From contig NZ_JAINFK010000003.1 of the NCBI RefSeq assembly GCF_019966575.1, positions 446,001-510,000 of the forward strand: DNA of 64,000 nucleotides, written 5' to 3'. The notes beneath the pieces are model-generated. The model was not told the DNA's origin. It saw nothing but the letters and a program-made list of their open reading frames with translations, and made no database searches. Positions within the stretch are counted from its first letter, which is position 1; every line of letters starts with the position of its first letter. Below are positions 3,666 to 30,059 of the stretch, one piece after another. The translations under genes were made by a program, and so were the position numbers. The DNA comes from Oricola cellulosilytica. Its GTDB lineage: Bacteria; Pseudomonadota; Alphaproteobacteria; Rhizobiales; Rhizobiaceae.

Positions 3666-4961
3666 TCAGCGATAAAGATCCCCCCGCGTCGGCGGCAGGC
3701 CGCTCGGGCCGCGCCGCTTGTGCGAGACGAGCGTCTGGTAGAGACGGACGCCATTGCGCTCGAACGCGATCGAGCACCCGCCGAGATAGAGCAGCCACAG
3801 CCTGGTCTTGACCTCGCCGACCTCGGCCACCGCTGCTTCGTAATTTGCAACGAGCCGGTCGTGCCAATGCTTGCAGGTGCGCTGGTAGTGCTCCCGCAAA
3901 TCCTCGACGTCATGAACTTCGAAGCCATGCTGTTCTAGGTTCATCACTGTGTTGCCGATATTGTCGAGTTCCCCGCCCGGAAAGATGTATTTCGTCAGCA
4001 ACGCAAACTCCTCGTTCTTGCGTCGGTTGGCTTTCGCATCCGCCTTGGCGGGCCTGGTGATCGCGTGGTGCAGGAACAGACCATCAGGTTTCAGCACACG
4101 TTTCACAGTGCGGTAATAGGTCGGGTAGTTATCGATGCCTATATGCTCCTGGATGCCAATCGCGGCGACCTTGTCGAACGTTCCCTGAACGGTGGCATAA
4201 TCCGCCAGTTCGAATTTCACGCGGTCATCTATGCCGAGACGTTTCGCCTTTGCGTTGGCATATTCGACCTGCTGGGTGGACAGTGTGACGCCGAGCGTGC
4301 TGACGCCGTAATTCTGCGCTGCGTAGCAGGACAAGGCTCCCCAACCGCAGCCGATGTCCAGCATGCGTTCGCCGGGCTTGAGACGGAGTTTCCGGCAGAT
4401 CAATTCGAGTTTGTCGGCCTGCATCCGGTCGATGTCGTTATCCCAGTCGGTGCAGTAGGCGCACGTGTAGACCATCTCCTTGTCGAGAAACAGCGCATAG
4501 AAGGCATTGGAGACATCGTAGTGGTACTGGATGTTCTTTTCGTTCTCGGCGCGGCTTCCGTCGCTCGGAGCCTCGTCGGGTTGTGTTTCCAGCGGCCACG
4601 GCTCTCCGCGATCAACGAACCAGAATTTGCGGGCGGTGTTGAACGCGAGCAGCTTGTTGGCCGACCTGCGGATATCGCGCGTGCGCACCTTCGGCTTCTG
4701 CTTAACGAGATCGAAGATGCCGCCGTTCCTCAGGTCAACGCGTCGTGCGACCCAGAGGTTGAGAAGTGTTTCCATCTTCGGTCTGCGGGTCATGGCGGCG
4801 ACCGCGCCTTCATCGGCGATCACCACGGCGAACGCATCAGATGCGAGGTCGTGCGGAACGGTTACGCCGTCCCACAATATGAAACCGAGATCGATCTGCA
4901 GGACTTCGCGCATGTGCGCGAGGAGTTTCACGAAGGACTTCAGGCGTCCGGCTCTACCCAT
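3666..4961 (-). CDS. cfa: Cyclopropane-fatty-acyl-phospholipid synthase
   Basis: SAM-dependent methyltransferase that adds a methylene bridge to unsaturated acyl chains of membrane phospholipids. The 431-residue product has an N-terminal lipid-binding-type region followed by the methyltransferase core: YHYDVSNAFYALFLD, YTCAYC (catalytic Cys), LDIGCGWGALSCYAAQ (SAM loop), GVTLSTQQ, IGIQEHIG (Glu) and HYQRTCKHW. The start is ATG 4961, with GGGAGA 7 nt upstream; an in-frame extension to 5048 lacks a ribosome binding site and is not typical of the family. Its terminator appears to be the hairpin shared with acs. Confidence 0.92.
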   Translation of the reverse strand: MGRAGRLKSFVKLLAHMREVLQIDLGFILWDGVTVPHDLASDAFAVVIADEGAVAAMTRRPKMETLLNLWVARRVDLRNGGIFDLVKQKPKVRTRDIRRSANKLLAFNTARKFWFVDRGEPWPLETQPDEAPSDGSRAENEKNIQYHYDVSNAFYALFLDKEMVYTCAYCTDWDNDIDRMQADKLELICRKLRLKPGERMLDIGCGWGALSCYAAQNYGVSTLGVTLSTQQVEYANAKAKRLGIDDRVKFELADYATVQGTFDKVAAIGIQEHIGIDNYPTYYRTVKRVLKPDGLFLHHAITRPAKADAKANRRKNEEFALLTKYIFPGGELDNIGNTVMNLEQHGFEVHDVEDLREHYQRTCKHWHDRLVANYEAAVAEVGEVKTRLWLLYLGGCSIAFERNGVRLYQTLVSHKRRGPSGLPPTRGDLYR

Positions 4962-5069
4962 CCAGGTCTCCCGTCTGTCAATGAAGCCATTGCAATATAC
5001 GGCGCGCATCCATGCAAACGCCTTCAGGCCGTCGCAAGCAACAAACAACTGTCTTTGATCGCCCGGGGC

Positions 5070-5098
5070 TTGGCGTTTGGGATGAACCTTCCCATATT
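5070..5098 (+). promoter_or_regulatory. Candidate promoter for the 21-codon gene
   Basis: TTGGCG (5070-5075) and CATATT (5093-5098) are 17 bp apart, each matching four of six consensus positions. This would place a transcript start near 5105, about 29 nt before the ATG at 5134. Motif match only. Confidence 0.3.
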
Positions 5099-5133
5099 CA
5101 CCATGTGTTCAACAAGCGAGAGGAGGTGATCCG

Positions 5134-5199
5134 ATGTCGAGTGGTTCTATGGTGCCGGGGCGGTCTTTGCGGATCTTCAACCGTCGGAGCAGCCTCTGA
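5134..5199 (+). CDS. Putative 21-residue basic small protein with a perfect Shine-Dalgarno
   Basis: The frame encodes MSSGSMVPGRSLRIFNRRSS and a final Leu, then TGA. It is preceded at 5121-5132 by AGGAGGTGATCC, which is complementary to twelve bases of the 16S rRNA 3' end, with the ATG two nt later (nine after the GGAGG core). Five arginines and no acidic residues make it strongly basic. It lies alone on the + strand in the 369-bp gap between cfa and the TadG-like gene, both on the - strand, and a strong hairpin follows about 80 bp after the stop. I do not recognise its function; the case rests on the ribosome binding site and transcript layout, not on homology. Confidence 0.55.
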   Translation: MSSGSMVPGRSLRIFNRRSSL

Positions 5200-5276
5200 C
5201 GCGTCGAGAGATCTGTGCAACCGGATAGTGCGTCAACCGCGATCCAGATTGACGACCAGCCGGACGCCGGAATTGC

Positions 5277-5304
5277 GAAGGCCGCCCAAAAGGCGGCCTT
5301 CTTC
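5277..5304. terminator. Strong bidirectional hairpin terminator
   Basis: GAAGGCCGCC (5277-5286) and GGCGGCCTTC (5292-5301) form a perfect 10-bp stem around CAAAA. It lies 27 bp after the TadG-like gene (- strand) and downstream of the 21-codon gene (+ strand). T-rich tails are weak on both sides, but the A-rich flanks of the loop and the stem strength suggest it ends both transcripts. Confidence 0.6.
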
Positions 5305-5330
5305 GCTCCTGCGGGCGAAACGCCCAGAAC

Positions 5331-6611
5331 TCAATTGACCAGCCGCAATCCCTTTATATCCTCTGCGATCGACACGAACGCCTCTTCCAGTCCGGCCTCG
5401 TCGGTGGCCGAGTAGTAATAGGTGTTGGACGCAGTGTTGGTCGAAGCGCATTCCTTCATCATCATCTCAGCTTCGACTTCCGCGCTGAAGGCAATCGAGT
5501 AGACATTGATGCCATTTGCCTTCATCTGATCGCATATGCGTTTCGCGTATCGCTCGGACTTGACGGTCTGATCGCAGAATCTCGACGTGGTGCCATGGAA
5601 GTTGAACGCGCCGTCAGTCATGATGATGGCGTATTTGCTCGTGCCGGCGCCCGAATACGGAGCGGCTTGCGATTTCGCCGGCCATGCTGCGTTCCATTTG
5701 GGCGAAAGCAGATATTGGGCCCACGCTACACCCACCTGGCCTGCAGTACATCCGCCGGTTCCCAGTGCGTCGATGTTGCTGTTAAGAACGGCTTGCGATT
5801 GTTCGAGCGGAACAATGGGCGCGCTCGGGCAATCCCAAGGAAACCGGCCGCCCACCCTGGCAAATGCTTCCGAACCGATCTTCGCTTTCGCCGTTGCGAA
5901 CGTATCGGTGTATTTTTCCGGGCCCGTACGTTCGTAAGCACACCCTTTCGACCACGTTGTAGTGACGATCTTGTCGATTACCGGGGTGGCATTGACGCCT
6001 GCCGAATAGGGAGCAAGTGCGACACGAACACGATCTTTCAACGCTGGATCCAGAAGCAGTGTGGCGATACCGCTCTTTGCAGCTTTCTTGAGGGCGTCGA
6101 TCTTCCTTGTCGATGTCCCGGAAATCGGGTTCTTCATTGATCCCGTGACATCGAGCGCCATCGCCACTTCAATCGCGTTCTGCGAATACTTTGCCTTCGA
6201 CGAAACTGCGACGCGCTGTCGGTCGTAACCGAAAATGCCCGTCATGGTCATCGGCATCTGGGTGTGCGCATCGACGGTTAGGGTCCTGGTGGCCTTGTCG
6301 ATCACGATTGCGTCGATGGTTACGGCGGAAGGATCAAAGTTGCGGCCGTCTAGGTTGGCGTCGAGATAGGCTCTGATCTTTTCGTCCGCGTCCTTCTCCT
6401 TGATATCGCCCAGCGTTAACCCCTGGGTGGTCGCCAGCACTGCCGCGTCAACGGCCTGCGAGAGTTTCAACTCCGTCGAAAACATACGAGATACGTCGAT
6501 TGCCATGCCGCCCGCCATCAGCAACGCTGTGGCGCTGACAGCAAACATCACGCCGAAATTTCCCTGCCGGTCCTGGCGAAACCCTCGTATGCGATCCGGT
6601 AATTTGCCCAT
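5331..6611 (-). CDS. TadG-like pilus-associated protein with VWA domain
   Basis: A 426-residue protein. Residues about 1-50 hold the TadE/TadG N-terminal region: a basic start, then FGVMFAVSATALLMAGGMAIDVSRM, a single membrane helix. The rest is a von Willebrand A domain with a MIDAS-like LDVTGSM (about residue 155), TDGAFNF and a C-terminal SATDEAGLEEAFVSIAEDI typical of this group. TadG proteins belong to Flp/Tad pilus machinery at the envelope, but no other tad gene is nearby. GGGAG lies 9 nt before the ATG. Binding of a metal ion is inferred from the motif, where Thr replaces the usual first Ser. Confidence 0.8.
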   Translation of the reverse strand: MGKLPDRIRGFRQDRQGNFGVMFAVSATALLMAGGMAIDVSRMFSTELKLSQAVDAAVLATTQGLTLGDIKEKDADEKIRAYLDANLDGRNFDPSAVTIDAIVIDKATRTLTVDAHTQMPMTMTGIFGYDRQRVAVSSKAKYSQNAIEVAMALDVTGSMKNPISGTSTRKIDALKKAAKSGIATLLLDPALKDRVRVALAPYSAGVNATPVIDKIVTTTWSKGCAYERTGPEKYTDTFATAKAKIGSEAFARVGGRFPWDCPSAPIVPLEQSQAVLNSNIDALGTGGCTAGQVGVAWAQYLLSPKWNAAWPAKSQAAPYSGAGTSKYAIIMTDGAFNFHGTTSRFCDQTVKSERYAKRICDQMKANGINVYSIAFSAEVEAEMMMKECASTNTASNTYYYSATDEAGLEEAFVSIAEDIKGLRLVN

Positions 6612-6817: not shown

Positions 6818-7051
6818 TTAGAAATCGACAGCAATCCCCTTTACCTCCCAATCGCCGTAGCGCGCAGGATCCTTGCCTCCACGACCGCCGATTTCGCGCT
6901 TGGAGTTTTCGTCCGCAAGACGCTGCTCGCGACGCTGTGCCGCTTCGTCCAGTGCCCGGCGTGCCGCGGGCGTGAGACTGGCGACCGGCGCACCTTCATC
7001 ATCCGCAGCAGTTTGCGCGGCTTTCGTCTGCGCCTTCTGATCTGAAACCAT
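6818..7051 (-). CDS. DUF1674/SdhAF4-family succinate dehydrogenase assembly factor
   Basis: A 77-residue protein ending in GGRGGKDPARYGDWEVKGI followed by AVDF, the hallmark of the DUF1674 family. The eukaryotic member Sdh8/SDHAF4 binds flavinylated SdhA and helps complex II assembly, and the bacterial protein is assumed to do the same in the cytoplasm. The N-terminal half is charged and probably disordered. The start is the ATG at 7051 with AGGTAA upstream; an AGGAGGAAA lies farther off (about 24 nt) without a suitable in-frame start. It is divergent from htpX. Confidence 0.82.
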   Translation of the reverse strand: MVSDQKAQTKAAQTAADDEGAPVASLTPAARRALDEAAQRREQRLADENSKREIGGRGGKDPARYGDWEVKGIAVDF

Positions 7052-7175
7052 ATCGTTACCTGGGCACCTCGGATTTCCTCCTGGTTGGGAAGGTTGAAAA
7101 CAGCCACTCTCCGACACACTATATTATGCAATCAAAGCAGGAATCCACTGCTGCGCGTGTTTCGGAGAAATGCAC

Positions 7176-29854: not shown

Positions 29855-29952
29855 CGCGTACCGTTAGCCCGGCTTCCTCTTCCGGCCAAGCACCATCCAC
29901 AGCCATCCTCCCCTCTTGAAGCGCTGTCGCGGTCGTTCTACAACGGCGCTGC

Positions 29953-30037
29953 TCTAACGGGGTGCTGCAGCCGCAGCTGAGAGGCCGAAAGCCAACCCGT
30001 CGAACCTGATCCGGTTTGCACCGGCGTAGGGATTAGA
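29953..30037 (+). ncRNA. TPP riboswitch (THI element)
   Basis: All conserved blocks are present in order: ACGGGGTGC (29957-29965), GCTGAGAGGCC (29976-29986), ACCCGTCGAACCTGATC (29995-30011) and CCGGCGTAGGGA (30021-30032). P1 can close with TCTAA (29953-29957) and TTAGA (30033-30037). It leads directly into thiB, so it should lower thiamine import when TPP is plentiful. The expression platform appears to be the downstream hairpin masking the thiB ribosome binding site. Confidence 0.95.
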
Positions 30038-30059
30038 CGCTTCCGCCGCGTTGCCGGCT

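Follow-up and report, generated by a model that had tools for sequence, protein, structure and literature searches.

Dual-function small RNAs (sRNAs) such as SgrS and RNAIII are structured RNAs that carry a short translated frame, and rnTrpL/peTrpL of Sinorhizobium meliloti is likewise a small structured RNA with such a frame. The RNA described here resembles them in this respect but differs in that it has neither a well-conserved peptide nor a downstream gene under attenuation and in that its Shine-Dalgarno (SD) sequence can pair with most of the 16S tail. Three separate records bear on it. (i) The Rfam family RF01867 (Caulobacter sRNA CC2171) is described as an sRNA gene without a reading frame, and the literature that we found on it gives no function. 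(ii) A 215-nt transcript of Mesorhizobium huakuii, MH_s33, was filed as RF01867 and treated as a non-coding sRNA (PMC5596092). (iii) The report on SEP1 of S. meliloti describes a novel small protein and no structured RNA; the protein has 23 amino acids and a pI of 4.18, is conserved in Rhizobiaceae, showed the highest translation efficiency among 54 novel small open reading frames (sORFs) by Ribo-seq, and gave a Western blot signal as a tagged protein (PMC10117765). For Caulobacter crescentus, Schrader et al. state that most intergenic non-coding RNAs are untranslated, which speaks against the reading favored below, and they also report two earlier ones that are translated (PMC4117421). The text consulted of an S. 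meliloti sRNA survey contains nothing that can be matched to the present locus (PMC2245857).

Organization of the locus in Oricola cellulosilytica

The sequence analyzed is a stretch of 64,000 nucleotides from Oricola cellulosilytica, referred to here as the window. The 12-mer AGGAGGTGATCC at 5121 to 5132 on the plus strand is the only copy within the window, where shuffled sequences lead one to expect 0. It is followed by an ATG at 5134 that opens a 21-codon frame (5134 to 5199) with the translation MSSGSMVPGRSLRIFNRRSSL and the stop codon TGA at 5197 to 5199. The original prediction, namely, an SD sequence matching twelve bases of the 16S tail, followed by ATG and a 21-codon frame and located between two genes of the opposite strand, thus agrees with what is found at 5121 to 5199. 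The C terminus that it had quoted lies in the same region but is short by one residue; the actual sequence is RSLRIFNRRSSL. Both neighbors are on the minus strand and encode a CMAS-type cyclopropane synthase (3666 to 5048) and a TadE/G-like VWA protein (5331 to 6611). Near the latter gene lies a gene for a DUF1674 protein (6818 to 7117, minus strand), and elsewhere the window contains a TPP riboswitch at 29948 to 30049 on the plus strand (67.1 bits, over the gathering score).

An extended SD sequence, CGAGAGGAGGTGATCC, lies at 5117 to 5132 on the plus strand, and its AGGAGGTG and TC are invariant in an alignment of 54 sequences. In relatives the consensus is GAAAGGAGGTGATCC, which would be complementary to 15 nt of the textbook 16S tail assumed here; the window has GAGAGGAGGTGATCC. 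A search for the 16S 3'-end pattern in the genomes of this analysis gave no match. Upstream on the same strand, a putative promoter (5069 to 5098) consists of the -35 element CTTGGC (5069 to 5074), an 18-nt spacer, and the -10 element CATATT (5093 to 5098), and its position would place the transcription start near 5105. Downstream, a 10-bp hairpin with the arms GAAGGCCGCC and GGCGGCCTTC (5277 to 5301), followed by TT, forms a predicted terminator at 5277 to 5303 (plus strand), the T run of which is weak (TTCTTCG). A strict consensus scan of the locus detected neither promoter nor terminator. Both elements, which had been proposed originally, are supported instead by their conservation in relatives: in 55 of 84 representatives, compared to 2.6% of random 12-nt windows, CTTG stands at a set distance 5' of the SD, a CAYAYT block occupies the -10 position, and a hairpin with a T run is found at the equivalent place. 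The entire RNA probably extends from 5105 to 5303 on the plus strand, as judged by matches to the covariance models described below. An additional 8-codon frame, ATGTGTTCAACAAGCGAGAGGAGGTGA (5104 to 5130, plus strand), terminates within the SD; it is probably due to chance, since its start is not retained by relatives and lies no farther downstream than the transcription start expected here.

Two other interpretations of the locus were rejected. Since the window contains no rRNA, the 12-mer is not the antisense of the end of a 16S gene, and the unit is conserved independently. A cis-acting leader or attenuator was discarded because the downstream gene of the window is read from the other strand, as it is in 94 of the 129 homologues for which a downstream open reading frame was called (by crude calling).

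Distribution of homologues and relation to RF01867

Searching with 291 bases of DNA returned matches in 29 of 61 genomes. The order of parts is alike in nearly all of them: CTTG at -35, CAYAYT at -10, TTCAAC, GAAAGGAGGTGATCC, ATG, and the short frame, continued in relatives by a GGAGCAGCC hairpin, a short block ending in CAC or GC, and the terminator. When named genomes were scanned with a 24-base motif, at least 119 contigs were retrieved, including those of Mesorhizobium, Aureimonas, Hyphomicrobium, Hyphomonas, Stappia, and Rhodospirillaceae. We then built a covariance model (CM R1) from 54 homologues. Within the family, it detected the RNA in 188 of 247 genomes and in 87 of 109 genera, with rarely more than one copy per genome. 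Across the class, 69 of 289 genomes had a match, a number that includes some weak matches spanning only ~40 to 55 nt that may be false. Because the homologues are related by descent, these genome counts are not independent events. The window RNA is the single match in its genome (128.6 bits, E value of 7e-32), a score that is not independent since this copy (L008) was among the sequences used to build the model. Two matches were observed in G003, whereas nearly all other genomes have one. A plasmid search with either the window copy or a Mesorhizobium copy as query gave no match, and a plasmid-borne element was thus rejected. The distribution is far from chance: a single-copy RNA of ~200 nt is kept across much of Alphaproteobacteria, and this class-wide conservation supports the proposal of a free-standing gene of ~200 nt with a strong ribosome-binding site.

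The RF01867 model aligns with the window RNA over its full length (positions 1 to 159), with 28.1 bits and an E value of 1.7e-4. The gathering score of 75 bits is reached neither by the window RNA nor by a Mesorhizobium homologue (L039, 33.8 bits), and an Rfam scan of Hyphomicrobiales relatives gave no RF01867 match at the gathering level. Loci of the class scan that were found by CM R1 have RF01867 scores of 36, 45, 46, 70, 72, 73, 79, and 80 bits, and the two highest of these, L180 (79.7 bits) and L183 (79.1 bits), exceed the cut-off. Because these intermediate scores close the gap to the members above the cut-off, the window RNA is, as judged by model alignment, a divergent relative of RF01867 that lies outside its formal threshold. 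Both share the 5' GAAAGGAGGUGAUCC (in the window GAGAGGAGGUGAUCC), the start codon, a closing helix immediately 5' of the terminator, and the terminator itself, whereas the P1 helix sequence, the body, and the length differ. Although RF01867 is described in Rfam as lacking a frame, the window RNA carries one, as do L180 and L183, with 23 to 24 codons and peptides that begin with MSHCH. MH_s33, which indicates that a member of the family is transcribed, shares with our set the RF01867 assignment and a length of ~215 nt, which is the size class of the Mesorhizobium homologues; the likeness is by size and family assignment, not by sequence (PMC5596092). At two loci, L181 (1311 to 1407, minus strand) and L186 (967 to 1063, minus strand), an SRP RNA gene lies shortly downstream of the CC2171-type RNA on the same strand.

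Conserved frame length, secondary structure, and a copy of the 16S tail

Conservation of the frame in relatives was a point on which the original prediction was to stand or fall, and the frame is conserved. It is open through 20 codons in 134 of 135 distinct homologues and stops at codons 20 to 27 in 130 of them, as compared to 7 and 8 for the other two frames and 14% for mono-nucleotide shuffles. Since the motif by which these 135 homologues were selected includes the ATG, the frame was rechecked on loci retrieved with the covariance model, whose scores take no account of a frame. All 29 class-wide loci (26 parsed automatically and 3, namely, L161, L164, and L173, by eye) have frames of 18 to 30 codons that start with ATG, GTG, or TTG.

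Two helices are predicted to overlap this frame on the plus strand. P1 joins codons 3 to 5 (5141 to 5148), starting 7 nt past the A of the start codon, to the block immediately 5' of the terminator (5269 to 5276), and P2, a CGTCGGAG-CAGC-CTCTGACG hairpin at 5182 to 5201, encloses the frame end including the stop codon. P1, P2, and the terminator are all present in the minimum-energy fold of the window RNA, in which the start codon is for the most part free of pairing. In the alignment of 54 sequences, 87.4% of the P1 and P2 cells are paired compared to 74.5% after shuffling, and the covariation score is 0.461 compared to 0.249, with none of 500 shuffles reaching as high a value. Sliding the partner by 1 to 3 columns reduced this score to 0.06 to 0.18; as the structure was taken from predicted folds of some of the aligned sequences, it has an advantage over the slid versions in the pairs formed and less so in changes on both sides. 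Such two-sided changes occur among homologues at all seven P2 pairs counted; at position ATG+11, 32 of 80 sequences have a U-A pair and 28 have a G-C pair; and in Caulobacter-like members P1 is made by another sequence pair, CAUUGUCA/UGACAAUG. The comparisons thus show a conserved, terminator-bounded RNA, predicted to be structured, with a conserved short frame and a strong SD. An RNA with this kind of conserved secondary structure and of the RF01867 type goes beyond what was predicted originally, and the frame statistics together with the covariation are those of a translated or dual-function sRNA.

Many homologues also contain an internal copy of the 16S tail (anti-SD). We analyzed 88 sequences (84 representatives and 4 from Sinorhizobium) for pairing of the SD with the segment from mid-frame to past the stop. 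The best pairing had a mean of -14.6 kcal/mol compared to -11.2 kcal/mol in dinucleotide shuffles and was significant (P ≤ 0.05) in 39 of the 88 sequences, with about 4 expected. The anti-SD is GGATYGCCTTY within the frame in the Phyllobacteriaceae type and CACCTCCT or CACCTTCCT right after the stop in Rhizobium and Sinorhizobium; elsewhere it is an arm of P2. The Sinorhizobium SD has an extra A (AAAGGAAGGTG), and its partner after the stop has an extra T (CACCTTCCTTT or CGCCTTCCTT). The pairing is significant in a copy (L014) from G003, the sister of the window genome, and is not significant in the window copy (P = 0.365). Since, in addition, the window fold leaves the start codon open, a switch in Oricola is inferred from its relatives.

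Proposed function and alternative explanations

The original prediction had left open a highly translated small protein, a dual-function RNA, and a ribosome-binding decoy. The latter two are both possible, but the covarying structure along with the conserved frame favors a translated regulatory RNA. We consider, with a probability of about 50%, that the locus encodes a free-standing, translated, and structured regulatory RNA akin to CC2171, whose fold is switched when ribosomes load and in which translating, rather than the peptide, is selected. According to this model, binding of a 30S subunit and translation of the short frame would require the ribosome to melt P1 and P2; without such loading, the body would fold, and the SD would, in many clades, be captured by the internal 16S-tail copy. 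Ribosome occupancy would in this way flip the RNA between two states that may differ in activity or lifetime, and the selected property would be the act of translation and not the peptide. The RNA would then be translated in Oricola, translation and folding would be mutually exclusive, and this exclusion would be its purpose. A more far-reaching version, which we regard as doubtful, is a class-wide switch that senses the availability of 30S subunits. Ribosome loading would compete with P1, P2, and the built-in copy of the 16S tail, the frame would exist only to be translated, and the RNA, either folded or unfolded, would affect translation or other RNAs in trans.

The evidence for translation comes from the literature on the presumed S. 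meliloti homologue. The RNA is present in 32 of 33 Sinorhizobium genomes, and in the three that are closest to S. meliloti 2011 (pSymB segment, 96%) its frame encodes MSNEISDLVMDMGEVKESRQPSA, a peptide of 23 amino acids with a pI of 4.18, a value shared by about 0.3% of random 23-mers. From length, pI, and phylogenetic range, not from sequence, we infer that SEP1 is the product of this frame, and the very high translation efficiency of SEP1 is consistent with the SD of the RNA (PMC10117765). Its detection as a tagged protein (PMC10117765) also agrees with an unlikely alternative, in which the locus is a small mRNA, its peptide of 20 to 27 residues is the functional molecule, and the RNA structure just tunes translation. 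Further points in line with a functional peptide are that the frame is kept class-wide, that Ser2 is present in nearly all members and encoded by all four TCN codons, and that EQP near the end is common to many clades. However, the pI ranges from 12 in the basic window peptide to 4.18 in the acidic Sinorhizobium peptide, and the C-terminal motif changes frame between clades while the nucleotides remain unchanged: the GGAGCAGCC stretch is read in the EQP frame in most clades and in the RSSL frame in the Oricola group, with a stop soon after each. Substitution counts give at most a weak indication of purifying selection. With 26% synonymous changes expected, 26 close pairs had 20 synonymous and 47 nonsynonymous substitutions, near the neutral expectation and suggesting no selection, and the larger set of 35 pairs had 27 and 43 (omega of ~0.56; P = 0.02), suggesting weak selection; the overlap with P1 and P2 restrains synonymous and nonsynonymous changes alike. 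Frame length is thus kept and amino acids mostly are not, so that translation seems to matter more than the peptide. The notion that a small protein is the purpose of the gene loses weight because the peptide, unlike the frame, is hardly conserved.

Somewhat less likely still is a ribosome decoy or 30S buffer, in which the near-perfect SD and the helix behind the start codon hold 30S subunits and lower the translation of weaker mRNAs. In line with a decoy, no part of the RNA is more invariant than the stretch that complements most of the 16S tail, P1 begins close behind the start codon as noted above, and the presumed S. meliloti copy has high ribosome occupancy (PMC10117765). A pure decoy would, however, need neither a conserved frame length nor a conserved stop position, the internal anti-SD elements would counteract it, and a single gene copy would face very many 30S subunits. 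We consider improbable a conventional base-pairing sRNA with an incidental frame, which would use its SD-like stretch as an antisense seed to pair with either the 16S precursor or anti-SD loops in other sRNAs, for example, ar14. Rfam lists RF01867 among sRNAs, the conserved structure is rich, and an ar14 sRNA adjoins the RNA in one relative, where it is convergent and directly downstream (L019, 1743 to 1864, minus strand), but conserved start codons (ATG, GTG, or TTG) at a good spacing and the frame statistics are at odds with an incidental frame. That a chance frame lies beside a chance SD without forming a functional unit can be dismissed almost with certainty: a 21-codon frame alone is ordinary, and the window has many, but conservation and covariation refute this explanation.

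The analysis ties together RF01867/CC2171, M. huakuii MH_s33, and presumably also S. meliloti SEP1. It cautions that a strongly translated small open reading frame need not imply a functional small protein, and it opens a direct test of whether the translation of a short frame may serve as a signal that is read by a trans-acting RNA. The CC2171 sRNA family appears to be widespread in Alphaproteobacteria, present in single copy, and translated, with a frame that is kept in length and hardly in sequence.
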